Positions 1 to 62,307 of a DNA stretch of 64,000 nt are shown in pieces; the stretch's first letter is position 1, and every line of letters begins with the position of its first letter. The notes below the pieces were generated by a model. The model did no database searches. It was given only the letters and a program-made list of their open reading frames with translations, and was not told the origin of the DNA. Source of the DNA: Straminergon stramineum (taxonomy: Eukaryota > Streptophyta > Bryopsida > Hypnales > Calliergonaceae); the NCBI GenBank assembly GCA_963920665.1, contig OY987267.1, forward strand, positions 2,480,001-2,544,000, read 5' to 3'. A program made the position numbers and the translations under genes.

Positions 1-561
1 GTATATTCTCCTCCACTACTGGTTAATTCTCCTCCACCACCGGTACACGCTCCTCCACTAGCGGTACAATCTCCTCCACTACTGGTTAATTCTCCTCCAC
101 CACCGGTACATTCTCCTCCGCCACCGGTACATTCTCCTCCACCACCGGTACATGCTCCTCCACAGCCCGTTCATGCTCCTCCACCACCGAAGCCCGTGGA
201 CACATTCTCCCTCAAGTGCGTCATCCACAACATTGCCGATCAGAGCGTGATATTTACTCTGGAAGTTGGTGGTCAAAGCTCGAAGAAGGTTGTGGCGGAG
301 AAAGGATGCTGGACCACCATTGCGCCTGTCACTGTGAGCTGCAAGGCTCCTGTGGTGCACTTGAGCGTGACTGTGAAGACGAACAAGGGCGTGTCGGTGA
401 CGAAGTCGTTTCCGATCCCCTTGTTGAATCAGTTCAAGTTGATCCAGCCGAAGAGCCTTAAGGTCTTGCCGCTGCTCGCTTACGATACACTGCGACCTAT
501 AGTTGGCAAGTTTCTGGAGATCGAGATCGCTCACACGAAGATCCTCTCATTCAAGCTCTAG
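1..561 (+). CDS. Extensin-like proline-rich protein, 3' end (5' truncated)
   Basis: The frame is open from base 1 to a TAG at 559-561, so the start lies outside the window. Residues 1-65 are about nine copies of a 7-residue (21-bp) unit of the form SPPPPVH, with variants such as SPPLLVN, APPLAVQ and APPQPVH; a two-unit block (SPPLLVN plus SPPPPVH) occurs twice. The remaining ~120 residues form a non-repetitive domain with many valines and three cysteines (in LKC, KGC and VSC contexts) that I do not recognise. Ser-Pro(4) motifs are the classical substrate for hydroxyproline arabinosylation in cell-wall extensins, so a secreted wall glycoprotein is the likely role, but the signal peptide would be off-window. 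It could also be a chimeric proline-rich protein with an enzymatic or binding C-terminus. Confidence 0.7.
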   Translation, partial: VYSPPLLVNSPPPPVHAPPLAVQSPPLLVNSPPPPVHSPPPPVHSPPPPVHAPPQPVHAPPPPKPVDTFSLKCVIHNIADQSVIFTLEVGGQSSKKVVAEKGCWTTIAPVTVSCKAPVVHLSVTVKTNKGVSVTKSFPIPLLNQFKLIQPKSLKVLPLLAYDTLRPIVGKFLEIEIAHTKILSFKL

Positions 562-1050
562 AAAGGTAATCTCACCAAAGCTATTCCGATCATCATGCTA
601 TAATTTTGCCGTGCTTGCTACCAAATCTCGCATTCATGAAGGTGGTCTTTTTCGTTTTAGTGAGAGAGCTTTCCGATCCTGTTTGTAGTTTTCATGAGAA
701 ATGTCACTTCTGCAGTTTCCACGAGATCGAACTTTTCTTTTGAAGTTCTCACGAAAGCTCCCTGCGTGTGCTGTTGACGGGAGCTTTCCTGTTTGTATTT
801 TTCGTATCGCTTTTCTGTTTGTAGCTTTCAAGAGAGCTTTCCTGTTCGACAGTGTATTTTTTGAGAGATTTCCTGTTTCTAGCTAGTTTTCATCTGCGAT
901 CTTTTCTGTGTAATATTTTTCGATGACAATGCAGACGAGTGTGCTGATCTATTTTAACCTTCTTTTTGATTTGCAGGAGACAAGCAATGGGGACGGTGGT
1001 TGATTCCGTTCGGTGTGACGTAGAATCAGCTCTAGCTATGAACTCATGAC
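562..1050 (+). other. 3' UTR region with probable intron and degenerate short repeats
   Basis: Five bases after the stop codon there is a donor-like GGTAATC (GT at 566-567), and a pyrimidine-rich tract ending in TTTGCAG stops at 977, so a 3'-UTR intron of about 412 bp is possible. Inside it, a motif like GAGAGCTTTCCTGTTTGTAG recurs five or six times in decayed form between about 660 and 910. No coding potential is seen. Confidence 0.35.
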
Positions 1051-1399
1051 AATGTGTTTTGGGGGCTGGGGTGGGGAATTTGGCTTGAAGTTAGAAATAA
1101 TCACATGCTCGTCAGTTGGGTCATGTCGATTTCAGATCAGTTGATCGCATTCTTGCTCCACGATTTTTAGTGGAGTCCCTTTATTATATGTGAAGGATTC
1201 TTGAGCTCAGACTCTGCGTATTTCACATTCAATTGTATGGATGGTTGTTATTGGAGCATTCGATTGGAGCATTCTATTTGACATGTTTTGAATCACGCTG
1301 TTCGACATGAATCCGATCGTTTGGAATGGACCCAACATGAATTTCTTCTATTATTTGGTGATGTGTAAATCTGTTTTATTTTTCTACGTGGGTTGTTCT

Positions 1400-1535
1400 T
1401 AAAGTTAGAGTAATAAAGCGGTGTACATTTTTTGGCATTCATTTCTGACATTAGATGAGAAATGTGCTTTGTAGTGTCCACCAAGGCATTCTCATTCACA
1501 AGCAAGGAGACTGTTCTCATACACTTGCAATCAAA
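1400..1535 (+). repeat. Dispersed repeat, copy 1 (partner 21370-21505)
   Basis: This block, which includes TGTACATTTTTTGGCATT and then a run matching GAGATGATAAATGT / GAGAAATGTG, aligns by eye with 21370-21505 in the same orientation. Both copies lie about 0.5-1 kb downstream of a plus-strand gene end. No ORF. Confidence 0.5.
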
Positions 1536-2064
1536 TTTTCTTCTAATCAACTGCATATATGGTCAATTTCATTAAAATGGTAGTATTCCATATGTCATTT
1601 TTCAGAAGAGACATGTAGGAAAGGTATATATTCCTGATATCTAGGACTATTATAGATGTAGAAATCTAGAAAAGGTATACATTTCAAACCACGCAATCTA
1701 AACAATCTCGATGACTTGTCTAGATTTCCAACATCTATGACTAATGTAGATTTCTAACATCTAGGACTAGTCTAGATTTCAAACCACGCAGTCTAAACCT
1801 TAAAAGTGCCAAAGTAGCATAATGGCCTACCAATTTGATGGAATCCCACCATTTTAATGTAATTGACTATATATGCAATAAAATTGTTTGTTTAAGCAAA
1901 TATTGTTTTTTTAGCGTTAGAAGCTAATAGATATGAGCCTCAACTACATTAGATTTTGAAGGAAAATTTACTCTAGAAATTTATTTAAAAAAATTGTAGA
2001 GTAGATTTTGAGAAGGTGAAATTGATTATGGTTATGAGGTTATACACTTTAGTCTCATATTTTT

Positions 2065-2340
2065 TTTCATGACCTCAATTTTAGATTTGGCATGTAAAAA
2101 GCGGATTGAAAGACTTCAAATCATTTTTACAATTTTAACACCTTCTTGATCCAACACTATAGTCTTTCAATCCACAAGTGATAATATTGTTGTGCTTTTT
2201 GTTTCCTATGTGATCTATAGTATGTCTAGTTTGATTTCATATGATTACAATTTTTGAAAAATTGATAAAATTATTCAACATTTGGACTTTTTGTTTAGCT
2301 TAGAGCAAACACCACGAAGTTCAAAAAAGACCTTAGACAT
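2065..2340 (-). repeat. Dispersed repeat, uninterrupted copy (partner 63485-63955)
   Basis: Read against the reverse complement of 63485-63955, this segment matches over most of its length, including shared blocks around GACTTCAAATCA, CTTTCAATCCA and TATGTCTAGTTTGA. The 63-kb copy contains an extra 150-bp hairpin element that is absent here, so this copy acts as an empty site. No coding content. Confidence 0.6.
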
Positions 2341-3431
2341 TTAGGAGTTACTAATAAGTGCATGTGAAATTTGCATCTAGTGGAGTATTGAATATCATAA
2401 ATGTAAGGTCATATAATGATGAAATCAAGCTTCTTTTGACATGTGAACAACATGACTATTACTCACAATTATTATTCTAGTAATTATATCATTGTCAATT
2501 TCAAGAGTGATAACATGGGTACCATGATGGCAAAAATTTGATGTTTGCCACTTTGCCTTACCATCTATTTCACAACTCTATTCATAATTGTATGGCTTTG
2601 ATTGCCACAACTCCATCTAGTGACCCTAATTTTTTCTCAAATTTTTATTTTTGACTATTTTTCTGAACTCTTATATTTGTGAGGATAATAGGACTTGACA
2701 TTCAACATCATGAAGTTTTAGTGCAATAAACATTAGAAGAAAATTTGGAGTTAAAGAAGTCCGTGAATTCCCTAGAGTTCCCGAACTATAGGAACTCACC
2801 ACATCACCACTCTAATATGGTCAAAAGACAGCCACGTCAAATAATTTTAATTATTTAATATTATAAAATATTTTTTCAAATGAGTTTTCAGTTTCTTAAT
2901 AATTTTTGAAATTTTTGGGAAAAAAAATTTCATTTTTTTTTCAAATTAAAAAATTTTGACAACAATGGTTGGTTTAGAGTTCCTAGACAATAAGGGGAAC
3001 AGCCCTAACATGGCCCTCCCTTGCCCCGAAATATCTTCTAATGGGGTAAGTGATTGCAAGAAAGGCTTCAACTATTTTCCACCATATCATGTGTACCTTT
3101 GAAAACTGAAAAATTCAATGTAAATTGTTTGACATAGATGTAACTATGGCCATTTTAAATTAATGTTAACTTTTTTCTAAAATTTATTTGGTAGGGAATA
3201 TGATTTTTGATAATGTGTCACAATGCAAGTTTAGGAGGGTTTAGAGTAATATTGAATACCCATTTATAGAATTAGGAGTAACTTTCAAACACAAGTTTTT
3301 AACTTCTAAAGTCCCAAGGTGTTCTATTCATCAATTTCCACTCAAAACTACCATTCTATTCTAAATTAATGGCAAAAACTTTTGAACCTATTTTCTTGTT
3401 TGTCTAACTGTAGGATCTTACACTAAACTAG

Positions 3432-5175
3432 TTAACCTCTAAAAGCCCAAGGTTTTTGGGGGTCTAAAGACATCATTGCTTTTGAAGTGTTATAGATCAA
3501 AATGCCACTTAGGTATAGAAATCTCAACCGTACAATCTTGTAGTGTACATCTTGTATATGACATGAATCAAATTTGGAGTCATTTGGCCACGTAGATTGC
3601 AAGATTATAATGTTTTAGTGTTGAAAAAGGATTCTGAAATTTTCCTAGTAACACATTTGGAGGTGAAATTTGATTTCTAAACCTACTCAAATGAAAAAAC
3701 TTTAAACTATAAAGTGATTTTAAACCATTGTACAAACACATTGGTGAAAAAAAAAATCAATCAATTGACTCATTGTGTTTGCAAAATGGCTTTGAGATGT
3801 CAAAAAATAGCAAGAAAAGTTGCAAAAATCACATCAAAACCTGAACCTCCTTCTACTAAAATGCTTCTCAGTTCCTCATAACTTCTTGGATTGAAATGAA
3901 ATTTCAGACACACAAACTAGACTAGTATGCACAACTTCCCCCCCCCCCCCAACATTATTGGGAACGGACACTGTATGAAGAAGAAACAAGCCGCCAAAGC
4001 TCATTGTAATCTAAAAATGTCGGGATTTTGAACTTCGAATTGCTCCCAAACATTCAAAACATCTTGGATTGACATGAAAATTCTACCACAATAACTAGAA
4101 TTCAAGGGGAACAAAACACAACAAATTTTATTGAAAACAAATATTAGATGAAGGAGATACAAGCCCCCGAAGTTGCAATCATCAAATGCAGTTTGGTGAA
4201 CTCAAATAGAACCTGTGAACTTCGATTGGCTTCCAAAAAATCATTTCATATTGGATTGATCTGAAAATTTTACCACACAAACTAGAAAAGAGAGCGTAAA
4301 TTTTCCAACAAATTTTATTGAATTCGGACATCGGATGCAAAAGTTACAATACTTTGAATTGGACTTGAAACTATGTGAGGACACTTTTCGTCCCTTGGGG
4401 TGTTTAGGGGTTAAGGTATTTGCATTTGAAGTGAAGAAATCCAATTTTTTGGCACCATGAATGACTAGATTTTAAGGCTTTAATTCTTCTTAGCTTAATA
4501 TTTTTGCAATACTAGTATTGAATTAAAAAAAATTGAGTTGAAGAATTTAGTTGAAACTTTCTAAATAAAATTTAATGAATTCACTACACTTCATTTTTTA
4601 TTCTTAGAAAATTATTATGTAGAAGTATAATTTACAAGATAGTACAAAAAACAAAATCAATAATAGGTCTAAGATAGAATTGAATCACAATAATCTCAAT
4701 GGTGAGACTATGAGACTATTCTAGCGCGTGATCTAAGCCTTGTCAAACTATTGGTTTGGAAACTTGTAAAACTTGCATTAAAAAATGAATCCTATAAGAT
4801 ATTTTTTCAAGAAGACACTCAGATTACCTAAAGAACAAGATTATCTTTAACTCTCTCATCACTAGTCAAATTTTAAAAAATCAAATCTTTCTATGTAGAC
4901 AAAAACACTTTCTATGAGAAGCAAAATTTTAAAATTTTATTTTGACTTCTTGTGAAATTTTTTGTCCTACCTAACAACCCTTTAGTTTTGGGTTTTAGGT
5001 AGCATAACGTTTGCTCTTGTGCACTACTTCAAAAAAAATACTATACTACTAAAAAGCTAATTTGCTTTTCTATCTTGTAAAAAAACTTCAAAAATCATGG
5101 TAAAAATTGATATCTTAGAAGCCTACACAAATTCTATTTTCTCCCTCGAAGGAATATTCGGACTTTAGGGGTTAA
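3432..5175 (+). mobile_element. TTAA-bounded non-coding element, interrupted copy
   Basis: Left end TTAACCTCTAAAAG at 3432; right end CTTTAGGGGTTAA ending at 5175. The first ~210 bp and the last ~740 bp match, by eye, the corresponding parts of the 935-bp element at 28321-29255 (for example the GTAGATTGCAAGAT block near 3590). The middle is occupied by a tandem repeat (3840-4350), and a second right-end-like TTTAGGGGTTAA ends at 4414, so this is either one element with an insertion or two overlapping copies. No transposase ORF. Confidence 0.5.
3840..4350 (+). repeat. Degenerate tandem repeat, about three units of 165-185 bp
   Basis: Three successive blocks each contain, in order, a GAACTTCGA-like start, TTGGATTGA-ATGAAA, a run like ACCACA-AACTAGA, ACAAATTTTATTGAA and a segment with GGATGAAAAG/TACAA. 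Units run roughly 3840-4024, 4024-4190 and 4190-4350. A poly-C run sits in unit 1 at about 3942-3952. Confidence 0.55.
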
Positions 5176-5468
5176 ACTATGATTCATCACAACTATACAA
5201 GTGTGTGAGCATAGCAAGCGCATGAGCCTAGAACTTAGGTGTAAGTAGATACTCTACAACCATTGAAGATGCTTATAACATGAATACCTATAATATAGGT
5301 ATCTATAACATAGTTATACTATAATCATGGAAGATGTCTATAATATAGATGCCTATTGTATAGATGTCTAGACTTCTAAGTTCATACTTAAGCTTATAAT
5401 CGTAGACTCATATAATAACAAACCTCCTCTCCCCCTTCCAATTGGAAATTGTATAACTAAAGATTCTC

Positions 5469-6232
5469 TTAACCCCAAGAATTTCAAAGTATTGGAATGC
5501 ATTTTTTAGAATTTAGACTCCTTTAGTTTCAAATTTTTAGTGTAATTTTTTGAAACCTTTTTGAAACCTTTTCAAAAGTTTTATATAAGTTTTATTTCAT
5601 TTGGTGTAGGGGGAAAATTTATGACTTGTTAAGCATAAAATGCTTATGCATAGGCAACAAGAAGAAATTGCAAAAAAAATCAAAATTATTATTTTTTCAT
5701 ATTTTTTCTATTAAAATATATCTGTAAATAAATCAAATTTCTTATTTGTTCCATTTGGTTATGGATGTGAAAGTTCAGAACAATTGTTTATTACACAAAT
5801 AGGTAATTTTTTTGAAAAAATATCATATAAAATCTATTTTAGAATTCAATTTTTACAAATTTTCTAAATAAATGCATCTATATAGTCTAGGTTACTACCT
5901 AAACCAATTTTCAATTTGATTTCCCATGATGAAAATTTGAGCAAGAAAACTTTGTAGTGGAAAAACTTTAAGTTAAAGGGATTCCATCTAAAAAACTAGT
6001 AAAGTAAGTGCTAGAACATCTTTTCTTTTCCTAGTTCGAACACTAATATCTTGCAATCAACATGTTTAGTGATTGAAATTTTTTTTTCCACATTTTCATA
6101 CAAATCTAATGCAAGATCCTAAGGTTGAATTTGAAAAAAAATTAAATTTTTTTTCATTGTAGCTCATTATACTAGAAATGGTAGTTTAAAGCAATTTTAG
6201 TTGAAAAATAGACATGAACCTTCAGAAATTAA
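5469..6232 (-). mobile_element. TTAA-bounded non-coding element, inverted deleted copy
   Basis: Relative to the 28321-29255 element this copy is inverted. Its left end is TTAACCCC at 5469. It contains the ACTAATATCTTGCAATC block near 6045 (complement of the 28-kb GATTGCAAGATATTAG) and a CTAGAAATGG block near 6173 (complement of CCATTTCTAG), and it ends in a decayed CCTTCAGAAATTAA at about 6219-6232. Length is about 764 bp, so it is internally deleted. Confidence 0.5.
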
Positions 6233-6320
6233 TGTGTTACCATTGTAACATAAGTCCATCCTCACAAAATATCTTCACCTACTCACATGGCCCAACATGG
6301 TTGTAAAATAGTCATAATTA

Positions 6321-6573
6321 GGGGAGATTTGAGGCCTCTACATGCCTACGAGTTCCCATGTTGTAGGGAACGTAGGAACTACGCCACTGCTACAGTCTGA
6401 CATGGCCAAGACCGTACTACATCAAATTTTTTTTTTTCAACTTCTTTTTGCATTTTAGAACTAATTTTTTTTTTATATTTATATGTTGACGGCAACTAGC
6501 TGTTTTGGGATAGCATAGGGAACAAATAGGGGAACAACCCTTAAACGGGCATGTCGAGGCCTCAAATCTCCTC
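6321..6573. mobile_element. MITE-like element with 18-bp inverted termini
   Basis: GGGGAGATTTGAGGCCTC (6321-6338) faces GAGGCCTCAAATCTCCTC (6556-6573), one mismatch in 18, bounding 253 bp without an ORF. No unambiguous target duplication: the left flank ends in AATTA and the right begins TAATG. A decayed relative is visible at about 2757-3048 (shared GTTCCC, GGAACT, GGGGAACA-CCCT blocks). Confidence 0.6.
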
Positions 6574-13650: not shown

Positions 13651-14529
13651 GTGCTTGACTGGGGGTAATTCAACTACATATTCTACCAGTTCTTAATCGA
13701 TCCTCGCTTGGGAGGGTGGGGAGCATTTACAGCCCGGGGGCGTCAGTAGCCACAGCAGCCAGCTCTTCAATGCTGTGCGGTGCGGTTGCTGTAACGCTCT
13801 AAAATCCAGGTTCAGTGTCGGGGACTCTACCTATAGTCAACTCAGTGGCAGACTTTCCATTGTTTTTAACTGGCGGGAGTGATCGTTGCTTACAGTATAT
13901 ATGGAGGGGTTGCATTGCTGTCCTCCAGTGTCTCAAACTTTCGCCGTCATGGATGCCACTGAATGCTTCGGAGTACTCCACACAGAATTTCAGTGTGTCC
14001 AGAAGTGTGGGACACTATCAAGCTGTTAAAATTTGAAGCTGAAGTGCATAAGAGAAGGAAATTTGTGGTTGTCCAGAGAATCACAACTTGGAGATTACCA
14101 GCGATTTTCTTCAAACACTGAGGTGAGTTTCTTACCTACTTTCTTCTTACACTACTACTTTCATGGTTTGATTTTTTTCCTGTGCTTCTCTTTCCATTTT
14201 CAAGAGTTAGGACTAAGTAAATTGAACAGGAGGTACGCTTGTCTTGATTCTGTCAAGATCTACATGCAGTTTTGTAATAGGCTTGCAACATGATGTCTGA
14301 GTGTCCTGTGCTTGCCACGGAATTTGATTTTGTCTAACTCGTAGAGTCAATTTGTTACTTGTGTCAATTCTTGAAGCACTGGGTGTGAGTTATGCATTTA
14401 ATTGAAGGCACAAGAAAATTCTTTCTCTTCTCTAGTGTTTTAATTTGAGACTGCAGGTACAACACGGACAAAATTGAGCTTGGAGACCATAATCCAAGTT
14501 GTTGAAACGGATGCTTGTCAGTGAGTATC
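13651..14529 (+). promoter_or_regulatory. Promoter/5' leader of the giant GTPase gene, with a leader intron
   Basis: Balanced base composition begins right after the repeat element. A good donor (CTGAG then GTGAGT, GT at 14123) and an acceptor (GACTGCAG ending at 14456) define a likely 334-bp leader intron. A short upstream ATG at 14511 opens an eight-codon frame overlapping the main start (ATG at 14530). The transcription start cannot be placed. Confidence 0.45.
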
Positions 14530-17500
14530 ATGGAGTCTGATGCTCTTTTCGAAAGAGTGAGCTGTGGACAAGCCCTACGTGGGACCTATGTTAATGGTCT
14601 CAGTGAGCTGATTGGGAGCAAACGAGCCTCAAAGCAGTTGCTTCGGCCCCCTAAGATATGTGAGTTCCTGAAACCGGATCAACCTTATAGGGTGGAGTGT
14701 ATATCTTCTTCGAGCATTCACGCAGGCGAGAAGTTTTTTGAGCTGTTGTTCAATTCTGGATGGACAGTTGCATTAAGTGCTACTGCAGCTTTCTATGGTT
14801 GTGGCCGCGTGACGGTCTCTGGGGGAGGGGGCCGAGACAGAGCGAAGGAGATGACATCCCGTTCTGATGTGTTGACCTCGGAGGCGTTGCACATGCAATA
14901 TTGGTATATTCCAAAAGCTTCATTCAGCATACCCCGCAATCAGATGTTGTTGAGTGAAGAGGCGTTAGCCGACATGCGTCTTATACATACAATCGAAGGT
15001 GCTGAGACATTTTTGTCTCATTATAATTCACAGGTCTCATCTGGAAGATATCATGTCGGAGGAGTCCTGTTGAAAGGTGTAACAATCAAGTCAAATTCTG
15101 AGACGACCTTAGAAAGCTTGCTGGACAAGGTCTCCTCAAAGGCCAACGCTGAAGCTAGTTATGAGAAAGTTAAGAGTGGCGTGGAGGTTGTTACTGTGGA
15201 CAGCAAGAGTACTTATTCAACCAGCAAGCAATTTTCTACGAGCAAGCAGTATTTCACTGGCAGTCAACAAGCGAGTGTGAGATGTGTTAACATTGCATTA
15301 GGTCCTCAGACAGATGATGAAGTCAAATTTCAGACTGAATTGAATGACAAGTCTACATGGCACATCATCGATACGAGTGACACAGCCGAACTTATACCAG
15401 TCTGGGAGATTGCATCAATGGAGAATAGTGTCGGACTTCGTGAAGCTGGTGATCTTCTCCGTGAGGCCTGGGAGAGATCAGTAGCAAGCTCTGTTGCCGG
15501 TGGAACTGGTAGAGTCTATGAGCTATGGCGTCAATCCCAGCAGCAAGCTCGCACTCTCAAGGTCACAGCTTTGCTCACAGAGTTGCGGATGTCATCTTCT
15601 GAAATCACTCTTGGTATTCAACTTTCAAACCTATGGCATGCAGCCTCTGATAGAGTAAAGTCGGATGAGTCTATCCCGACATCTGACAAGCTACGTTTAT
15701 TTCGTGATCTTGACTTCCAACTTCTCTTGGATAGAATAGTGAAGTCAAGTGATGGTGCAGCAAAGAGCTTTTTAAGATGCATAATAGACCCGGATATGCA
15801 GAAATTGTTGGAGGAGCAAAATATTGTCTTGAGTCTATCTGTATCAACTTTCATACAAAGTAAGGCTTAAAACAAATCTATTTCGAATAGGTTGCCACCT
15901 TTGGAAGTATTACCAACTCCTGAACTGTTGGATCAAGCACCACCAAGGTTGGGTGAGAAAGATAAGGCTGGTCCTCCAGCCTTACAAGAAGGTACTACAA
16001 CTACTTGCATTTCCTGCAATTTGTGTATTGATTTTTTTGAGGGGAAATTTATAATCTATATAATGTAGATCTTCAAATATTATTGTAATTTTGGTCTAAA
16101 ATGCCATGGGCTTGTTGGATTTAGCAAGTCTCTCACTACTACTTGCTAATTTCATACTCCGCAATTGAATGTTGTAGAATCAATTTCATGCCTGATTCAC
16201 ATTCGTTATAGATTTCTAATAAAAGTGTTTTGAAATGTTTATGGCAGACATTTTTCTTGGCAACACCGATGTTGTACGATACAGCTCTTATAACAAGAAT
16301 TATGGCTTATACACATATGGAGGTGATTATTTGGTTGATCGGCGTGTTGATGTATCTTCTAAAGATCCTTACAAAGGAATGATGGATCGTCTGAAACATC
16401 GTCAGGATCCATTTGCAACTGTATTGAATACAAACGATGCTGATGAAAAATCTGACAAAGATGATGACGGCTTCTTTGGGAATGATGCTGAGAGCGTAGA
16501 CTTGAACCTTTATACCAACTGCCAATTCAAAGCTTTGATGCAACTCTTGCGGCGCTCAGATGTGCTTGTTCAAATTGCTCTATTGCAGGTACTACTTGAA
16601 GAGCGTTTTGCTGTACCGCTTGTGATCCCATGCACTGAAGATTCTCACGATTTCTGTCATCTAGCAGAGGCTCTCAAATTCACTCACGTGAAACTAGCCA
16701 ACCAAGAAATTTTGAAACCATCAATTGCTGAGAATACAAGCCTACCACGTGTAGTATTTGTTTCAAACAGAGCGGTTGTGTCTCAACGAGAAAGTGCTGA
16801 CATGGCACACGCAGTGATGAATTGTCGATATCCAAGTATGTTTGTCAAGAATGAATCTGGAGCTGATTCTGCCATTTTGGAACTTGGAGTCGGCTTTCTG
16901 GAAAATGCCAAGGAGAAATCTTTGGAATATGTACCTTGCCTTGCTTTCCATGTATGGGGCGACCACAACAAACTAGGGACGATTTTGGAGAAGGTTGCAG
17001 ATATTGTGATCATTGAAATGGATTCAAATATGCAACCAAGCATGCCTTCATGGAATAATTCAAGACAATGTGTTACGCGCTTTTGGAGTATCAGTTCAAA
17101 AGGTAAAGGTGGTGACAGAGCCTCTAGTCATGTGTGGGGAAACTTCAAAGAGATCACCAAAGGCATCAATCAATATGTATTGAATATGATCAAACAGCAA
17201 GAGTCGAAAGGTGCAGGAATGACATTGGCTAATTGCGTGAGCTCCCTTGCTCCATTGAATGAAAAGAAGGCGACTTTCAATATTGAGCAACTTGATTCAG
17301 AACAGTTTGTGAGAGCTTCTTTACGATTGCAAAACATCTACACCGAAGAAGCAAAATTCTTTTTTGAATTACTAGAGGAGAGAGGGAGAGGGAAAGAACT
17401 CGAAGGAAGAATGAATGAATGTAAAGAAAGACGTAGAGGACTAGCAAATGACATCTACAGATTGCCAATTCTGCAGTTTTTTGTTCACTGTCTTGAAGAG

Positions 17501-20500
17501 ACAGACCTCGTGAAACGGAGCCTCAGCATTTCGCAATTGCAGCTTATGATTGACCGAAATTCGCAACCAATGCCTGACAAGGTGATTAGAAAGGTGAAAT
17601 TTCCTTCTGCGAAAACTCCGTACAAGGCATCAGATTCTATAGTACGTGGTGATGAGATTGCCAAAACGGAGTATGTGGATCAGATGCTTGGTTTGGAGCA
17701 CCTCTGGCGTGAACTGAGTCACATATTTGTAGCACATCCTAAACGCCATATGCATTTACCAACGTTGGCAGCATACCATTTGTTGGACGGCTTTCCATTA
17801 GAGATTTTAGATGGCGATGCAACCTACTTTCATAAATCGTGGGTGAACGCCGTGCTTAGTAGACTTGATATTGAACTCAATGCCTTACTTGGACATAAAC
17901 CCAAGGTGTTTGTGTTGAGTGTGGTAGGACTTCAAAGCAGTGGTAAATCCACTCTTCTCAATATCATGTTTGGTACGAAATTGAAAACAAGCGCAGGCCT
18001 CTGTACCCGCGGGGTGTTTCTTCAACTTGTGAAATCAGAGTGGTCAGAGTTTGACTACGTGCTCATCCTGGATACAATGGGTATGAGGTCACCAGAGCTT
18101 TTTGGCCTCCGGGATAAGGATGCACAAGACAATCGATTGGCAACCTTTGCTATTCTTCCAGCTGATGCTTGTATTATCATGGTTACTAACGAAGACGACA
18201 ATGGACTGAAAGAGATATTACCCATGGTGATGTTGGCATTCAAAGGATCTGCTTTGGCTGAAGAAAAGAGTAGAAAAATGCAAGCAAAATTGTTCTTTGT
18301 ATACAGGAGTGTTGACATTAATGATGTGCATAAGTTTGCGAAAAACCAAAGAAAGCTTCAAGAAGAGTTGAGAAGTGCTTCCTCTGCAATTGCTAATTTC
18401 AACATTGGTGAAACTAGTGAATTAGTTTCGGAGTCAGAATGCAACAACGAGAGCCTTCTAAGCAACTTTTTGATTAATATTGAAGATGAGAAGCAGAGTG
18501 ATGTGAAATATTTTGGAAATCACAAGAAAGGAACTAATCCTCCTGGAGATGTCCCAGATTTTGACTACGGATCCAAGGTGGAAGAGTTGCGATATTACAT
18601 CCATGAGCGTGTTTTGGACAAAAGCCGCTCTTGGAGTGCTCAAGAGTTGATGGGTTGGAATTCCTTTTTGGAAACCGTTTGGGACATGATTTCTGAATCA
18701 GATTTTGAGTTGAGCTTTTTGAATCATATTGAGCACTCAAACTATCAGTATATGCAAATGAGATTGGCAACTTGCCGACAAAAGGTGGGAAAGACATGGC
18801 AGGATGAGTTTGAGCTCCTAACAAGGAGACTTGAAGCAGATGCACAATTTGATGACAAAGTGTCATCATCAACCTTACTGAACCTCTTAAAGATCCAAGT
18901 CGAAGCAAATGTGATGGATGAAGAAAAGGAGGTGGTGCACATTCTTTCTCAAAAGCATCACCAGAAATGGAAGATCCGAGAAACTGAGAGATGGGAAGCC
19001 GATCGTCTGGAGTACCAGAGACACTGGGAGCTCCAGCTTCAAGGTTTCATTGATGGTGTGTTGAAATTTGATCTTGTTGTTAAGGATTATACGAACAAGA
19101 TACAACAGGAAATTTCTCTCGTTGGCTCTAAGCATCATTCAGATATTGATTCGGATGATAGAAAGAGAAAGATGAATGAGGATTTTGAATCGATTTTTAA
19201 GCGCGTACTGCAAGATGCCGCATGCAAGCACCCAACCATGGCAATGCAGGTGAAGGAAAAAATCCACAAGATATATGAGGGGCATCCTGTGCTTAGTAGG
19301 AAAATCGACTTTAATGAAAAAAGTAAAAACAACAATCAATTCCTTACAGGAATCTTGAAGAATGTTGCGAGTGCAGCATGGAAGAATATTTCTAGTTTAC
19401 TTGGTTCTGATGCTAAGGCTCATGAGCTCGAATTTCAGACCTTGATATCCAGGGTGCACTTCTGTCTTGAAGGTGTAAAGCAGTATTCAGATCACTTTGT
19501 GATAGAGATGATCCAAGTGACAATCGCTATGTCAACAAGAAAAACAAATCATGTGAAAGGTCTGATGCACAAACTTGTGAAGGAACTACTGGAGAAAGAA
19601 TTCCAAAGAATTCAAGAGCGATGGGATTCGATTCACAATGTTTCTAAACGACTGGAGACTCAACGAGATTATCTTTGGCTTTTTTCCAAAACCTTGCAAA
19701 TAGAGTCGATGGAACCAATATGTTATCCATGGCATTCTGTTGCAATATGTTGCAGCAACAACACTTGATGGGTGCTTACGAGGAACGAATCACAAGAGTT
19801 GTCTCGGACAAAATTCGGAGTGAGAAATGGTTGTCCGATGGGAAGGTAATGAGGGCTCATCTGGACCTTCACTTGATTGATCTAATTGAAGAGGAGAACT
19901 TTAAAGATCTTCTTGCGTGTGTTTCTGATGGAGCTTGGCATTATAGAATTGTTCTGGACAGGTTCATTGAAAGTGAGATTACGGAACAGAATGCGAATTA
20001 CGATAACCAGACCCAATTGAAAGGTGCAATCTATGAAGCCGTGAAAAATGCAGTTATTGAAGCGGAGCGTCCTACAGCTGCTCCACGACCAAAACTTCTT
20101 GTCTTTCAACGAAGCATCGTCAAATCTCTTAGTCATATATCCCTGGAACTTGCTCGGCTAATCTCCATCAACGTGAGTGATAAAATGTGTGGAAAGTATG
20201 GGAATGATATTGATTTTGGCAAAATCCGGGATGATGTGGAGGAGAAGATACGCGACATTTCTATCCAAATAAGCTCTTCCAACATCCGAAAAGTGGTTCA
20301 CATGGTGCGTGAGAGATTGGTCGACTCCAAGCTAGATGCTGCCCGACCTCGCTGTGATGCAATGTGTCCTCGTTGTGGGGTTACTTGCATGAATGCAATC
20401 CATCATTCTGGCGATCATGATTCACTTCACCAACCCCAAGGTCTTTGTGGAATTGGAGTAGTAGAAAGACGGTTGTCAACACAATTAATCCAAAGCTTTT

Positions 20501-20844
20501 GGGATATTTCTAGAGGCAGGCGGGTGGAACTATCATGGCCTTCATGTGTGAAGTGCATTGAATTAAATTATTACATGGAAGAGCCTGGTTCACCTGACAA
20601 GATAGTCTCATACCGGAATTGGGCAAATCATTTTCCCACATGGAAATGTCCTTCTCATGACTTGGGTAGTTCAGTTAAATTGAGGGAGTACATCTTTGCA
20701 AAATACCAAAAGAAGCTCCGCGACAAATATAGATCCTTGGAAAATGTTCATTTGGAGGTATGTAGTGAGATCCCTCCCGAATATTTTAAGCTGAAGCTTG
20801 GTGAACTGAGACGAGAGCTTGAGCTCATCACTTTGATTGGTTAA
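14530..20844 (+). CDS. VLIG/URGCP-type very large GTPase with N-terminal MACPF-like region (frameshifted)
   Basis: Coding exons are 14530-15859 and 16248-20844 (intron GTAAGG...GGCAG, phase 1). The ATG at 14530 is the first after an in-frame TGA at 14503. Residues ~140-300 look MACPF-like: FLSHY and then GG after 11 residues (FLSHY ~161), later TWHIID...IPVWEIA. The GTPase domain follows: P-loop GLQSSGKST (~1004), G3 DTMG (~1052), and an FVYRSVDINDV stretch where animal VLIGs have FVHQNV-type sequence. A long alpha-helical region and a C-terminal zinc-binding-like CPRCGVTC (~1817) with nearby histidines also match VLIG/URGCP proteins. Full length would be about 1975 residues, but a T-run (19680-19685) lacks one base, so the frame as given stops at 19768 (about 1616 residues) while homologous sequence continues in frame 1 to 20844. 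This is an assembly error, a young null allele, or recoding. The role is unknown; VLIGs are cytosolic/nuclear GTPases linked to defence in animals. Confidence 0.8.
15860..16247 (+). other. Intron of the GTPase gene with two in-phase donors
   Basis: Donor 1 (CAAA then GTAAGG) removes an in-frame TAA at 15868 and joins in phase to the acceptor GGCAG at 16243-16247. Donor 2 (GAAG then GTACT, GT at 15992) joins to the same acceptor, also in phase, but retains the TAA. The retained 132 bp is otherwise open and proline-rich, suggesting a former exon part or an alternative isoform that would be truncated. Confidence 0.7.
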
Positions 20845-23399: not shown

Positions 23400-26300
23400 C
23401 TATCTTCCAGCAGCATAAGACCACACCTGAAAGGACAAAAGCAACTAGGATTTCAGTGCCATATGTATTTATTTTCTATGGATTCTCAACTACTTGGGAT
23501 ATCAATGGAACTCACGGAACAAGCCAGAAAAATTTTCCTCTAGTGACATACAACCAGTCTTGTCAAAGCCAGGAAAAAAAAAAAAAAAATCGTATTGTAG
23601 ACCACACAAACCTTCAGAGTGGAGTCCCAACTTCCAGTGCAAAGAGCATCACCGTCAGCCGCCAATGCTAGGCAGCTTACGCGATTGGTGTGCCCCTCAG
23701 CCCGTCCTCCACCCAAGTTTGCCACCACCTGCAGACGGGACAATTATATAAGCACACGAAACCTGACTCTGTACAACTTCAAAAGCAACGAGATAGAATG
23801 AAGTCTCGCCATTTCATAACGAGAACCAGGCGTTGACTAGAACGGACTAGTTAGCATGCTTGGGACTATCATAACCGATTTCAACAGAATTTGAAGTAAA
23901 ATTAGTCTGTTTCAAGAACTTTTAGAAAGCTTATAAGAGAGAATCTTCGTCATGATTCATGGGTAGGTTCCCTTACGGTCAGAATAATCATACAAAAGCC
24001 TCTCGAAGATACACAGGGAGGTCTCCTATGGTGACAATGATCATCCAGAAGCCTCTAGAAGAGACAAAAGGGAGGCCTCTGCATGATCAGTGTGACCCGC
24101 GGGAGATCTCTCCATCAATTATGGAGAAGAATGATTCTCTTGATATTTCTGTCTAAACATTCCAAAGACGATCTACTTTTAGTGAATACTAAATTTTCAC
24201 AACTGTAGCGTCTTCCATATAGTAATTAGAAGATGCACGTGAGCATTATTCATCCGAGTGAGTTACGTCTCATACCTTGGCTAATAAAGTGTCCCAGACA
24301 TAGCAATTGCCGTTTGAGTAGCCTGCAAAGAGAAGGCGACCTGAACGTGAAAGTGCTATGGAAGTAACATTGACTGGACCCCGAGCAAGAGCCTGCTTGT
24401 CCCAATATTGCTGCAACTCATGGCCCGTGCCAATGTCAAAGAGTCGGCAGCTACCGTCGTCACTCCCGGTTCCTAAGTGGCGGTCCCCCGAAAGAATGTG
24501 CACCGTATTTACGTCACCCTCGTGCCCATGAAAGGTGCGTTGCGCTCGGCCAGGTGACCTCACGTCCCACAACTTGGCGGTTTTGTCACACGAGCCTGAG
24601 ATAAACATGTTGGGTTTGCTTGAACTCACAGATATACTGTTGCCATCATCCCATCATTTTCGTTAGTCAGTTGCAATTAGCTCGAAAGTGACTGTAAACA
24701 TAGCGCGAACATAGGAAATATGGCACCTCGTCTTGGAAGTTCAGAAATTCAACAACCTACTCGATTGAGGAGAGCTTAGATTTTGGCTTCATATCGGTGT
24801 GATCTATATATCCAAGAAGAGGTTCTGGAAAAAACTGAAATCAAATAGGTGAAAATGATTGTCAAAATTGAATTAAACTGCATGAGTCCCCAATGACGTT
24901 CGCGAAGTTAACAAAAGAAGAGGTTTCATTTTGCGTTGTGACAGATAAAAGTTTTCTATATCGCTAGTATTATAAAAATAGCAACACCCACCTCATGACG
25001 TCGCCGGTATGACCAGTGATAATGTCACCTCCAAAAATACTGATGCATTGTTGGGTGTCTGCATCCCACAGCCTACAAGTGCGGTCTTCCGAGCTCGTAA
25101 CAATGCGTTCTTCTTGAGAAGGAATATATTTACAACAAGAGAGGTAACCCGTATGGCCTGTCAGTGAACCTGACACGGGTAAGTTCCCTTCCTTGTCAGG
25201 AGATGAGTTGAGGTTAAAAATGGAGCAAACATTGTCCAGACCACCGCAGGCCACCATGTTGCCTGCCGGTGAAATGGCAGCTGCCATGACCCACGCGCAT
25301 GCCAACTTGAATGCATGTGTCTTCTGACCCGAAATGGCGTTCCACACAATGAGCCTGCCATCTTGCGATGCTGATACAATTCGTGAGGTTTCTCGGTAGG
25401 ACCAATCTAGTGAGTATATCTGTTCCAGCACAGTTTCTCAAAGGCTCAGTCTCCAATATTTCATTTTCATGAGCCCCTTCTAGTCCTTTCTATGTAATAA
25501 AACCAACAGATGTTATCTGTCTCTTAGGATGATCCACTACCAAATTGAGGTCAAACTTCATGCTTTCATACATACGATTCATTCCTCTGCGTCTAACACG
25601 AGTAAAGCTGTGGTGAAGTCCCTATAACAGAGTTCTTGAGACCAAAAAGAACGCATAATCCAACACAGTATGATACTCATGAATCAAGAGCTGCAAATCC
25701 CGGCTAAAAACAAAAATTTTGCATTAAAATCTAATAGTTATAGTTTATAGTAACTCTCAGGACTCAAAATGTTCGATATGATTTCTTTCTTCTATTGATA
25801 TGTTTTGTTACATCCTGAAGCAACACCACGGTTTTAATTCAACTCATATCGATATGAAGGCAACCACTTTTTGACGATTAGGGCACGCAGGTTTAAAGCA
25901 GAGAAAGTTGAGTTCATATCTTAACTGCAATCACAAAGTTATGAGCTAAGCAAAGAACAAGACAGAAGTGAAGCAACCGGGTATACCTTGCCTGTGTGTC
26001 CTTGCAAATTTCGACAGCATTTGAAAGAGCTGTTATTTACCTCCACCTGCTTGGATCCCTGACTTTGCGCATATGTAGCCACTGCTCAACCCATCGATCC
26101 CAACAATTCAATACATGTCAATTACTAATAAGAAAGTAATAACTCTCTCCTAAAACAACACGTAAAAAGTGAGGTAGAGGATTACGAAACCGTTGGAGAC
26201 CTGATCCCGTGACCTTAGTTCCCAGCAACTCAGCTACCGGTATTCATAAGCTTGGTTGGACAGCCAGTAAGTGGAGTACGCATGACTTCGCTAAATGTCT

Positions 26301-39200: not shown

Positions 39201-42200
39201 GCTGTAGATAATCCGATGAAGCGAACAGGAGCTCCTGTCTGAGAAGATATGTATCTCATTCGCGAAACAATAACCTACCGATAGGATATCATACCAAAGA
39301 AAAGTGAGTCTTTGAGAATCATATCTAGCCTGAAGAGAGACAACAAGAAAGAATGTATCCATATCCATATACCCATAGATATTCGTACAATTAGCATCAC
39401 TTGACTAACAAATATATTCCATCAAACTCTAATAGCAAGCTTACCTCTAGAATGGGTCCACGATCAGCTCCAAGAAGATGAATCTCGTCTATCACCATTA
39501 GTCCTACCTGATTTCATGACGATGGTAATAAACATTAGCCAAGGAAAGTGTTTCATCAGACAAAGTGCTGAAACGGAATGATGATTAAAAGTATGTAAGC
39601 CGACACTAAATCAGACGAGGTTTCTGCTTCAACATCACTCGAACATACCTTTGTAACATAACTACGATTATGCCAATTTCGACTGATGCCATCCCACTTC
39701 TCAGGTGTTGAGATGATGATATCAGCTGAGAGCAGGGCCCTCATATCAGGTGTGAAGTCTCCTGTCAACTCCACCTGTAGAGCAAAGAAGTGTTAAAAAT
39801 TCATCTAGTCCTCAGGTTGTGAGGTATAGTTCTGTCCATCAAATCATTGAACGTTTTGAGTTTTTTAAATGAATAATTCTTGAACAAATTCCGATCCATA
39901 AATCAGGGTGATCATTGATAGTTAGCAGAATTTCCAAAAATCCTCACGATTGTGAATTAGCTCCTATGTCATTAAATTTCAGGTTCTCAAAGAATGTCTC
40001 GATGTGGGCCTAACGTCAGTTTATCCTGCAATCAATATTACTAACCAACTTCTTGTTAAGCGAGCGCGCGAGGCCTTTTCCCCAGCCCTCCATCCTCTCC
40101 CTCACAAGTGCCTTAAGCGGAGCAATGTAGATAACCTGCCATAACACAGAAACACGTCTCAAAGTCTGAAAAGAAAGCATAAGAACTTAGCGACTTCACC
40201 ATTAGTTTGACGGAAGAGTTAGGGCGGGAAATCTGAGGTACATAAACATCAGCAGTTTACTCTCACGAACTGCATAAACAAAATCTTGTCAGCAATTTAG
40301 CTAAGGCACAATCCTAGGACTTTAAAAGAAGAAGGAAAATGTAAGCAGCATAGCAATTGAACTAAAGAAAACTCTGTTCATATTATGGCACCTTCATATC
40401 AGGTTGCGTATTGAAAAGTCGCATAATGGCTAACTCCGCAGAGATAGTCTTTCCACTACCCGTCGGAGCTCCCAGAAGGACATTGTTATCCGTGTGGTAG
40501 AGTGTGTGAAAAGCCTGCACAAAACTTCTCACTTTTATCTTCAACAACACATAAAAATTAAGGTTATGAAAATCAGTTGGCACAATGATAGGGCCAATGA
40601 AGATTATCGTACTCATAGATTATTATCCATCAACAAAGATTGCTGTATTTCTATGCCACTTCGTGATTTCTATGCATGAACAGTTGAAATTGAACAACCA
40701 GCAATAGCAATACTCAACATTAGTTGTGAGGACGGTATTGAAGATAATTATTTGTTTACCTAGAACTAAAAATTTCAGGTGCTTCTAAGATTATTTTTTA
40801 CAGTCAAAGCCTGTAGATGATAACAACGATCAACATTTTCTGGACGTTTGAAGTTAAGCAAGATTGAAACCTGAGTCTGAATGGGATTAAAATGGCTGAA
40901 GCTGTAAAGCTGCTCATAAGCTTTATTGCCAAGTGCCGCAAGAGGAAGAGGCCTTAAATCCAGCAACTCCGTATGTGGTGGGTGTTGCTGTTCAGTCATC
41001 CCAAACAACAAATACTGAACTTCAGAACTACAAGAAGCTTTACTATCACAAAAGTAGAAAACATAAAAGCGATGAATCAAAATCACTCCAACTCAATCAC
41101 AAGGTTGGACTCCATGCAATTGATCAACCCGCTGCTTCAGCGACGGAACACTCACAAAGACGTTACCTCGGGTAGAATGAGATGCTGAAAAGAGACTGTA
41201 AGAAGAGCCTCAGCTTGAATCCACGTATCAGAAACTGCTCGAATGTAATACTGGCTCGGCAGAGGTTCAAATATAGGAATTGTGAAAGTGAGAATCTGTC
41301 GTCCCTCACTGAGCATCTTTTTGTTCATGATGAAGAGCTCTGAATGATAAATATGCTCATTCTCAGAATCCTGTTTGATATCCACCACCTCAGCTCGTCA
41401 GGACACTCTATTGTCAACGAGATTATAAAAAGACGAAGAAGTGTAAAAAAATCTTGGATGCACAGAAGAGATTGGTTAAAGAAGAATAACTTACTGACCT
41501 CAACCCATATCCACCAACGTTGAGAGGAACCATGGATTTTTTCTTTCCACACAAAATCCGGAGTGATAGTCAACGCAACCTGCATTAAAATTTCAATAGA
41601 AGGTTCAGTCGTTAATGAGAGACAAAAGTGTATTCAACTGACCAACTCTCACATTGCTTTAACGAGCCAGAAAATCCTACTCATGCGAAAAAAATAGTAC
41701 CTGCAATACAGTGCGCGTGATAGGGCTGATGTTGGCAGAAAGATGAACGCGTGGAAAATACTCCAAGCATTGCACAACAAGCTGCAATAAACAATTAAAG
41801 TATGAAAATCTCATGAAAATGAACCTCCAACGCACAGTGAAAAGTTGTTGCATAGAGAAACTTAAAAAGACCTTCTGGTTGAATATCCTAACTGGAGCGA
41901 AATTGTATGTGAAGTCGGCAGAAAAACAAACTTGAGATTCAGAGAAATGCTATTAAATGAAAGGTCACACTATGCACCTTCCCGCCATGTGGATGCCGGA
42001 TCAAAGCTCCAATTTCCTTCTCATCCATGTCATACAATCGCTCCATCGGTACATCTCTATCTTCAAGCTTGTGCAAAATCTGCGTGCAAACAACTTTAGC
42101 CACGAGTTTCTGTTCACCAAACCAGAAAACAATTTGGGCAGAAATTACAAAGTTCAGAATCAAAGCTTGAGAAGATCTTACATCTGGCGACAACATTGTA

Positions 42201-45200
42201 TCAAATTGGCGAAGAGGGTGCTGATGAGGCCAGAGCCGTCGATCAACTGCCTTACAATATTCTAAGAGAAGTGCTGCCATAGTCACCCAGCTTCGTCGTA
42301 AACAAATCTCAAATAGGGCTCGCATTATGCGACCTAAACTCGCATTGATATAGGAGCTGTCTGCCACTAGGGAAAATCCATCCAGAAACCCTCGAGACAG
42401 AAACACCTAGTACAAATTTAGAGTTAGAAATCATGTGTGGTTCTTTCTGACACGTGCAAACCCACAAACAGGAAAAACAAGAAAGCACATAGTATTGAGC
42501 TCAGAACTTAGGAAAAACCTGAATGAGGATGTTAATTTTCCCATATTTATCTTCAGGACCTCCTCTGACCTCAAAAGGGCAATAGCGCCTAACAAGCTGT
42601 GACAATTCCTGCTGCTCCTCTTCTCTTACCATGATATTCTCAAACTCAGACGAATGAGCAATCATGTGGATTAACTGCATCCATCAGGGAATTGTACGCT
42701 AAGACTCACAGTAAAATCTGAATAAGGTTTACAGTATCATACGGAAATTGTATATTAACTGCAATGTATCTGCAAACACACTAGTAGTTCACAAAAAAAT
42801 AACCTCACATTAGCATACCAATGATATGAAAGACGAAATTCATTACCTCAGCTTCATTCATGTGACGCTTTAGCATCTCATTGTATGTCTCCACACTGGT
42901 GTACTGTATGTAGAAGTGACTGGCAACTCGTCCAAGATCAGTAACGTACAAATTGCCACTTTTCTCATCAAACCGCATCATTTTTGCTTTGTCAAGTTCA
43001 CGTGCAGCATCTGTAATGAGCGCTTTGCGTTTGGCTGTAAGGCCTGGATCGATCACAGCCTGTAATATTAACAAAATTAGAAGCACACAGAAGAATTAAA
43101 CAGACACTATCAGATCTTGTCAGCGAACGTTTCAGGTTGATTATAATAATGTGATACTTATAAAAGAAGAAAGGAAGGAAAAGACTATGACAGGGTTAAA
43201 ATTACTGCCGGTGGTAAAGATGCGTACCTCTTCCCAGCTCATGCCATACACAAGGGGATTCTTTAGAATGCGAACAAATAGGTAAGTATAACCCAGCCAA
43301 GTAATGGCTTCCTTAACATTGGTCACAGTCCCTAATACAACTTCCGCATTCAAATTATCTTTCAGGGAAGTCACAAACTGCAAAAACCGTGCACCACCAT
43401 GTACTATATCAGAAGGATCACAACAACAAACAACTGGCAGCACGATCTACATCTTTAATGCACGACTTGTTGGCACCACTTCGCGGTTTTCAAAGTGAGC
43501 TGTTCTTAATACTTGCTTGAATTTTCAATTTTGTGGTGTACAAGAGATTGGACTTTGGCACAAAAAACTCTCAATAATAGGTCGAATGAATGGAGGACAT
43601 AATACTTCACATGATGAGAGTACAGAGATGCTCTATTGGTCAAACTCTAAAGTTTATTATCTTCTTATTGCTACGCAAAAATCGTCATTGCTAACTCATT
43701 AAAAATATTTAACGCTTCACCCAAAGCTATGAAACTCCAAGAAAGTCATAAACCGAAAAATAGTATCAAGCAACGAGAGAGAAGGACGTCAATAGGTACA
43801 AAAATTCATGATAATGTATAATACGTCATCCTCTTGAAATAAATTTGTACTTCATGAGGGACAAACCTGGCTCTCAATTGGCAACTGATGAGTAAGAAGT
43901 TGAAGGTAGTGCGAGAGTTTGTTGTGGGTTGTAATAATAATGCCTTCACCACTAGTATCAAATTGTGGTCGCCCTGCTCGTCCAAAGATCTATCACACAA
44001 TTGATAATCGATTCAGATCACACTGGGACACATACAAGTCAGAAACTCTCTAAGACTGCAAGAAGAGTACTCAATCCGAAATCAAGCATTGTGAACATAA
44101 TGCATATCAAACATGCTAAAAATCACAACAAATATGCAAATACAAGCATCGCTGAAGGTTGGATCATGAAACAAATCAGACAGCCTCGCCAAACAGTATA
44201 GTTAAAGCAAACACCCCAGGCACTTCCAAACAATGCCACCTTTTCCAAACATTAGTATGGGGAGGTGATCACCTGCATAACATCTAGCATACCAAGTTCA
44301 CGCCAACCACCAGCTTTTGGATCATACAGCTGGGTTCCCTGAAACATCAACAAAATTGCCACGTATAAGGAATGTGGTTCTTGTCGTGCGATTATCAATT
44401 AGAGGATTGTAATAGGGTGACGTAAGACTGACAGCTTATTCAGTTCCCCACACTTCATCAAGTGCTTCACAAGAAAAGTGGAGGAAATACTGACCTTTAT
44501 TACTACCATGTGCGCTGGAAGATTCACTCCCCATGCAAGCGTAGCTGTGCAAACCAACACCTGCCAAAGGAAATTTTTGGAACCTCAGATAAGTCAGTCA
44601 AATTAAAAAAGTGAGTTTGCCAGCAAACCTTTCAAGCAAATCCCATCGACACAACTCAATTTCCAACAGCCATTACTCCTGTAAAGGCACAAAAATAAGG
44701 TGAAAAGCACGTGCCCCTACTAGATTAGTTTAGCAGAACTTAGCACATAGTTTCAATTCACGATCAATTTACTAATACATAAAAATGACTCCTTCCTCCA
44801 CCCTCGCAGCATGTCCTTCAGGAGCTCTTAATTTTGCAGAAGTCTCAGAAGCAGTATCGAACAAACCAAAAAAGAGAAGAGAAAGGACAGGATGAGCTTC
44901 CAGAAGATTGCAGAAAAACACCTTAATTAATCCTTCTGAAAAGAGCCGTTCAGTAAGATTTCGATCCGACCTTAGCATCCCAGCATGATGAACGCCGAAA
45001 CCCGATTGAAAAAGCTCTCCTAGCTCCCGATTTCTTGACTTTGACACCTCTTTCTGTTCGACATCTCAAACAAACAGATTTAAACTCGAATTCAAAGAGC
45101 TTCACCCTCCAACCTCAATCCCGTAATAGACAACCAAACCACATAATTATTATTTCAGTCAAATTCCTATTATAACTATCACTCGGATTCAGAATGAATA

Positions 45201-58276: not shown

Positions 58277-62307
<4,031 letters not shown>

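Follow-up and report, generated by a model that had tools for sequence, protein, structure and literature searches.

The window considered here is a 64,000-nucleotide stretch of the genome of the moss Straminergon stramineum (contig OY987267.1, positions 2,480,001 to 2,544,000), designated C5:2480001-2544000; C3 and C6 denote contigs of the same genome that carry paralogues. At 14530..20844 the plus strand of the window bears a gene of two exons, interrupted by one in-frame stop and one frameshift, whose predicted product joins an N-terminal membrane attack complex/perforin (MACPF) domain to a giant GTPase of the VLIG type. According to sequence and structure modelling, the MACPF domain comes first, followed by a helical middle that is possibly GTPase-like, the VLIG-type large GTPase and a Cys/His-rich tail.

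Gene model and GTPase half

The locus is covered by three long plus-strand reading frames (14515-15870, 16235-19768 and 19675-20844; 451, 1,177 and 389 amino acids). A close relative, P0023 (2,020 amino acids), can be aligned with the window from end to end in three pieces at 75-78% identity: residues 1-483 with 14527-15990, 484-1659 with 16247-19756 and 1638-2020 with 19681-20841. From this alignment exon 1 is placed at 14530-15991, the intron (GT...AG, phase 1, donor at 15992) at 15992-16247, and the remainder of the gene forms exon 2. In the C3 paralogue the equivalent position also holds a phase 1 intron. Reading frames reveal an in-frame TAA at 15868-15870, and together with the P0023 alignment they place a one-base frameshift in or beside a T run at 19678..19690 (near 19681, position approximate). 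A predicted alternative donor of the same phase, GTAAGG (AAA|GTAAGG, 15860..15865), would, if used, remove the TAA without a change of frame. Neither the intron nor these two interruptions had been mentioned in the original prediction, which described the MACPF-VLIG fusion from sequence. An Rfam scan of the window gave no match.

The GTPase half had been assigned to the VLIG type, and the sequence comparisons confirm this. The URGCP_GTPase family (PF25683) is matched at 17462..18403 with E 3.5e-52 and 177.9 bits (cut-off 55), and in the C3 paralogue with 1.2e-51 and 176.1 bits; the RHD3, dynamin and GBP profiles match the G domain far more weakly. The G1 motif GLQSSGKST lies at 17927-17953, DTMG at 18071-18082 and the zinc-like C-terminal motif CPRCGVTC...HHSGDHDSLHQP at 20365..20436. 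All motifs quoted earlier are present in the sequence, including FLSHYNSQVSSGRYHVGG and WHIID...IPVWEIA of the N-terminal part.

When the C3 GTPase region was used as a protein query, 713 proteins were returned at E <= 0.001, VLIG relatives among them. The best 120 of these were surveyed, and 122 proteins were fetched in all. The best 120 include sequences from mosses, a fern, oomycetes, rotifers, a choanoflagellate, Artemia, a flatworm, a soft coral, fish and a frog. The tail pattern CxxCxxxC...H...H...H[QRKS]P is found in 72 of the 122 fetched proteins (some of them fragments) versus 0 of 2,440 shuffled sequences. The middle domain of URGCP (PF25496) gave no Pfam match in the window or C3, nor in P0004, P0014, P0027, P0029, P0035, P0045 and P0057. 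It is matched in P0071, P0088 and P0122, which have the animal-type URGCP and GTPase layout plus a MACPF-like module.

The N-terminal module

A first profile, built from the alignment of the N-terminal parts of the window copy and its paralogues, gave 22 matches at domain E < 1e-3 among the best 120 of 713 relatives. P0006, whose match was confined to the helical stretch that follows the module, was removed from the set. A second profile added P0088 (117.7 bits) and P0122 (45.8 bits), neither of which had been used in building it; P0122 came from a full-length alignment search that returned three proteins. After iteration the module is present in 23 of the 122 fetched VLIG relatives. Since it recurs in these proteins and in two paralogues of the same genome, sequence comparison confirms that it is not a product of chance.

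The nature of the module is indicated by profile searches and by modelling. Searched against all PDB sequences, the 26-member module profile retrieved five distinct sequences at E <= 10. Four of them are pleurotolysin B (E 6.8e-6 to 8.7e-6); 2qp2, a solved MACPF/perforin-like protein (E 0.04), makes the fifth. When the members were scanned singly, PF01823 was matched in 7 of 26 (best 9.4e-7), while each of the 16 other Pfam families listed was matched by one member only (best 0.039). For the six of these seven that were identified, the PF01823 scores are 29.6 bits for P0057, 27.5 for P0063, 25.5 for P0029, 23.7 for P0059 and 22.2 for P0122 (cut-off 21.5); P0040, with 18.3 bits, falls under the cut-off. 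The model predicts a bent sheet of several strands and two helical hairpin regions, as in the MACPF/CDC superfamily. Stonustoxin (4wvm) matches much more weakly than the MACPF structures do, with a Z-score under the level that the tool treats as telling.

These data support a divergent MACPF subfamily, predicted to occupy residues 1 to about 326 (14530..15507). The fold proposed in the original prediction was thus recovered both by profile and by model; the extent of about 450 residues given there was too large. Two candidate membrane-hairpin regions could be delimited in the model: a TMH1-like region at residues 78-115 (14761..14874), partly of low confidence, and a TMH2-like region at residues 192-246 (15103..15267), where a helix is followed by an edge strand, also at low confidence. 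The MACPF signature is [YW]-G-[TS]-H-x(n)-G-G. The C3 paralogue carries it as YGSHVPDREYHVGG, one residue longer than the usual spacing. The signature-like motif of the window, FLSHYNSQVSSGRYHVGG, lies at 15010..15063, and its signature YNSQVSSGRYHVGG is degenerate, with YNSQ versus YGSH in the C3 copy.

The three-sequence profile had two weak PDB matches, neither of them MACPF, and the three-sequence structure model (pLDDT 33) was discarded. With the C3 N-terminal region as query, no protein among 7,963 candidates matched at E <= 1. PF01823, searched across the whole 326-Mb genome, yielded neither a match nor a candidate; this search proceeded exon by exon and says little.

Distribution, paralogues and inheritance of the fusion

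Module and GTPase are found together in single frames, by sequence and model, in mosses, oomycetes, rotifers and Artemia. Twelve of the 23 module carriers are labelled with an organism: Sphagnum jensenii; the oomycetes Phytophthora oleae, Saprolegnia parasitica (2), S. diclina (2) and Achlya hypogyna; the rotifers Didymodactylos carnosus and Rotaria sordida; and Artemia franciscana (3). A plant-only architecture was therefore rejected. The earlier view that animal VLIG proteins are not built in this way holds for the listed fish proteins, none of which matches the module at E <= 1e-3, and fails for Artemia, the rotifers and the URGCP-type P0071, P0088 and P0122. Absence from the listed fish may hint at a loss in the vertebrate line. 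However, most of these fish proteins begin too near the URGCP domain to tell whether the module was lost, and most other listed URGCP-type proteins likewise start too near it to contain the module. Its presence in every VLIG protein was rejected: P0094, P0121 (both fish) and P0084 gave no match despite 617-769 residues before the URGCP domain, in a weak test (hhalign with single-sequence queries).

Available room was counted in the 94 relatives with a recognisable P-loop; the 28 of 122 fetched proteins without the pattern used were excluded. At least 900 residues precede the P-loop in 21 of the 94. Among these 21, 16 carry the module, one a kinase, one a lipase and three none of them, and none of the 73 relatives with fewer than 900 preceding residues carries module, kinase or lipase. 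At the N-terminal place of the MACPF domain, a class-3 lipase is found in the bdelloid rotifer proteins P0061 and P0065 and also in P0050, and a protein kinase in Sphagnum P0019. The VLIG GTPase may accordingly carry exchangeable effectors, and two of the three kinds of partner (MACPF, class-3 lipase and kinase) would act on membranes. P0052 and P0066 are VLIG-type GTPases with other N-terminal partners, according to precomputed domains. An additional 310-350 residues or so, ending at about residue 310-355, precede the MACPF domain in P0028, P0029, P0035, P0037, P0040 and P0045 (rotifer, oomycete and other). This stretch gave no Pfam match better than E 0.1 in P0029, P0035 and P0045; in P0045 no PDB sequence matched at E <= 1.

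The original prediction would have failed had the two parts been separate genes. Two adjacent separate genes were rejected, as relatives hold both parts in a single open frame. P0027 (2,018 amino acids, module plus GTPase) has a name, c25412_g1_i1 orf=330-6386, of the form given to assembled transcripts and their frames. The 2,020-residue frame of P0023 lies on a 6,618-base contig and crosses the intron site of the window, so this contig is probably a transcript. Module and GTPase trees were built for 25 proteins; P0122 was left out, its GTPase piece not having been retrieved. Both trees contain the same small groups, and no conflict between starred forks was seen by eye; unstarred forks differ, for example in the placement of P0067, P0028/P0029 and L008. 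The sequences thus fit one old fusion, the two parts of which would have been inherited together.

The C6 paralogue is interrupted by stops and is 59% identical to the window copy in the module and 61% in the GTPase piece. The C3 paralogue (30% and 50%, respectively) is intact, with two exons and 2,162 amino acids when spliced in silico. The closest named match to its GTPase-exon product is P0054 of Physcomitrium patens (81% identity over 850 amino acids); some of the matches that follow are Sphagnum proteins. Between the window and C6 copies, synonymous (dS) and nonsynonymous (dN) divergence are 0.59 and 0.26 in the module and 1.07 and 0.26 in the GTPase piece, and dN/dS is higher in the module; comparisons involving C3 are saturated or nearly so. 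The TAA at 15868-15870 and the stop of the C6 copy (L007, about 3746-3748) are different in-frame stops, ten codons or so apart at most, both in the linker that separates the GTPase part from the MACPF/helical part. Their proximity may be fortuitous or may reflect alternative ends.

The surroundings look like an ordinary nuclear gene region. Neighbouring exons at 24270-25437 (minus strand), 41939-42406 (minus) and 58277-58618 (plus) match the G-protein beta WD40, Sec63/Brl and cytidylyltransferase families; three of the seven neighbouring frames scanned gave no match.

Possible function and comparison with known systems

The explanation considered more probable than not is that MACPF-VLIG proteins are a eukaryotic architecture, an intracellular membrane-attack GTPase with coat-driven assembly of its MACPF domains. 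As described for human GVIN1 and the related GBPs, the VLIG part would dimerise upon GTP binding and form a coat on its target membrane, which could be that of a microbe, of the vacuole holding it or of a damaged organelle. The coat could gather many MACPF domains, which would then assemble so that the membrane is pierced or scaffolded. A role as a defence effector may be inferred. Human GVIN1 is reported to assemble as a coat on bacteria, and its model contains two large-GTPase domains (PMC11974893); neither MACPF nor perforin is mentioned in the main text of that paper.

Several results weigh against this explanation. Scanned alone, none of the three N-terminal parts (window, C6 and C3 copies) gave a Pfam MACPF match. 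MACPF is also unlisted in the full-length Pfam scans of P0057, P0029 and P0122, although their cut-out modules match, which puts the match at the edge of detection. TM-scores are modest (0.25-0.44), and model confidence is lowest in both hairpin regions. Alternating hydrophobicity, compared with shuffles, gave no signal in region 1 (mean z 0.07 +/- 0.14, n=25) or region 2 (0.24 +/- 0.16, n=26), and the first region is only 10-22 residues long in the Saprolegniales proteins and P0071/P0088, which therefore may not make pores. The domain could thus serve as a scaffold instead of a pore former; this is considered possible, though doubtful. The missing amphipathic signal, the short first regions, the degenerate signature of the window copy and the presence of astrotactin-2 among the fold matches of the N-terminal domain would agree with it. 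However, the short-window moment test is weak on such hairpin regions, and in the window copy the region lengths, 38 and 55 residues, and the form of the second region, a helix plus an edge strand, resemble pleurotolysin B as described in its paper (PMC4318580). Pore formation may have persisted in some lineages and disappeared from others.

The in-frame TAA and the frameshift also count against a working window copy. It may be non-functional, which would leave the intact C3 paralogue as the better representative; that it is a pseudogene without a useful product, C3 alone being active, is given a little under an even chance. The stop-broken state of the C6 paralogue and the higher dN/dS of the module point the same way. 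On the other side, the GTAAGG donor just upstream would splice out the stop, the frameshift lies where assembly errors are common, and the three long frames persist. A function in ordinary membrane traffic or fission, as for other dynamin-type GTPases, with no part in defence, is thought unlikely. The G domain is weakly similar to the RHD3 and dynamin profiles, but VLIG/URGCP is by far the best family match, and the exchange of lipase and kinase partners looks more like an effector family.

The membrane-attack explanation can be extended, tentatively and with the balance of judgement rather against it, to a GTP-driven pore machine of deep eukaryotic origin, with coat GTPase and MACPF pore former in one cytosolic chain. 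The VLIG GTPase would then be a general carrier (of MACPF, class-3 lipase or kinase), and vertebrate VLIG/GVIN1 a derived form whose own pore former was lost. That moss, rotifers, oomycetes and a crustacean have this joined layout in common suggests an ancient membrane-attack machine acting inside the cell.

Few interferon-induced GTPases are as poorly understood as the giant VLIG GTPases. Plants are not known to have an interferon system. Coating of bacteria by GVIN1 was reported only in 2025 (PMC11974893). Should relatives in mosses, oomycetes and invertebrates indeed carry their own membrane-attack domain, a direct and testable idea of the purpose of the GTPase coat would be obtained, and animal cell-autonomous immunity would be tied to a so far unnoticed system of early land plants.

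No description of a MACPF-VLIG fusion was found among the matches listed for the open-access papers searched; in the passages concerned, the two papers naming both 'interferon-induced very large GTPase' and 'MACPF' treat them as separate regulated fish genes. The moss protein shares with VLIG/GVIN1/URGCP (PF25683) a G domain above the curated cut-off in the window and C3 copies, as well as the C-terminal CxxC...H[QRKS]P tail. It differs in its N-terminal MACPF domain and in that PF25496 is undetected in both copies. With pleurotolysin B and other MACPF pore formers (PF01823) it has in common the fold and the signature region of the N-terminal domain. Unlike them, it is fused to a GTPase and has no signal peptide visible on inspection of the sequence, no prediction tool having been run. 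The plant MACPF proteins CAD1 and NSL1 are linked to immunity and are not known to contain a GTPase; the moss protein resembles them as a plant protein with a MACPF domain and differs by the fused GTPase. The domains themselves are known; among the open-access matches listed, what is new is the VLIG-family architecture together with a divergent MACPF subfamily.
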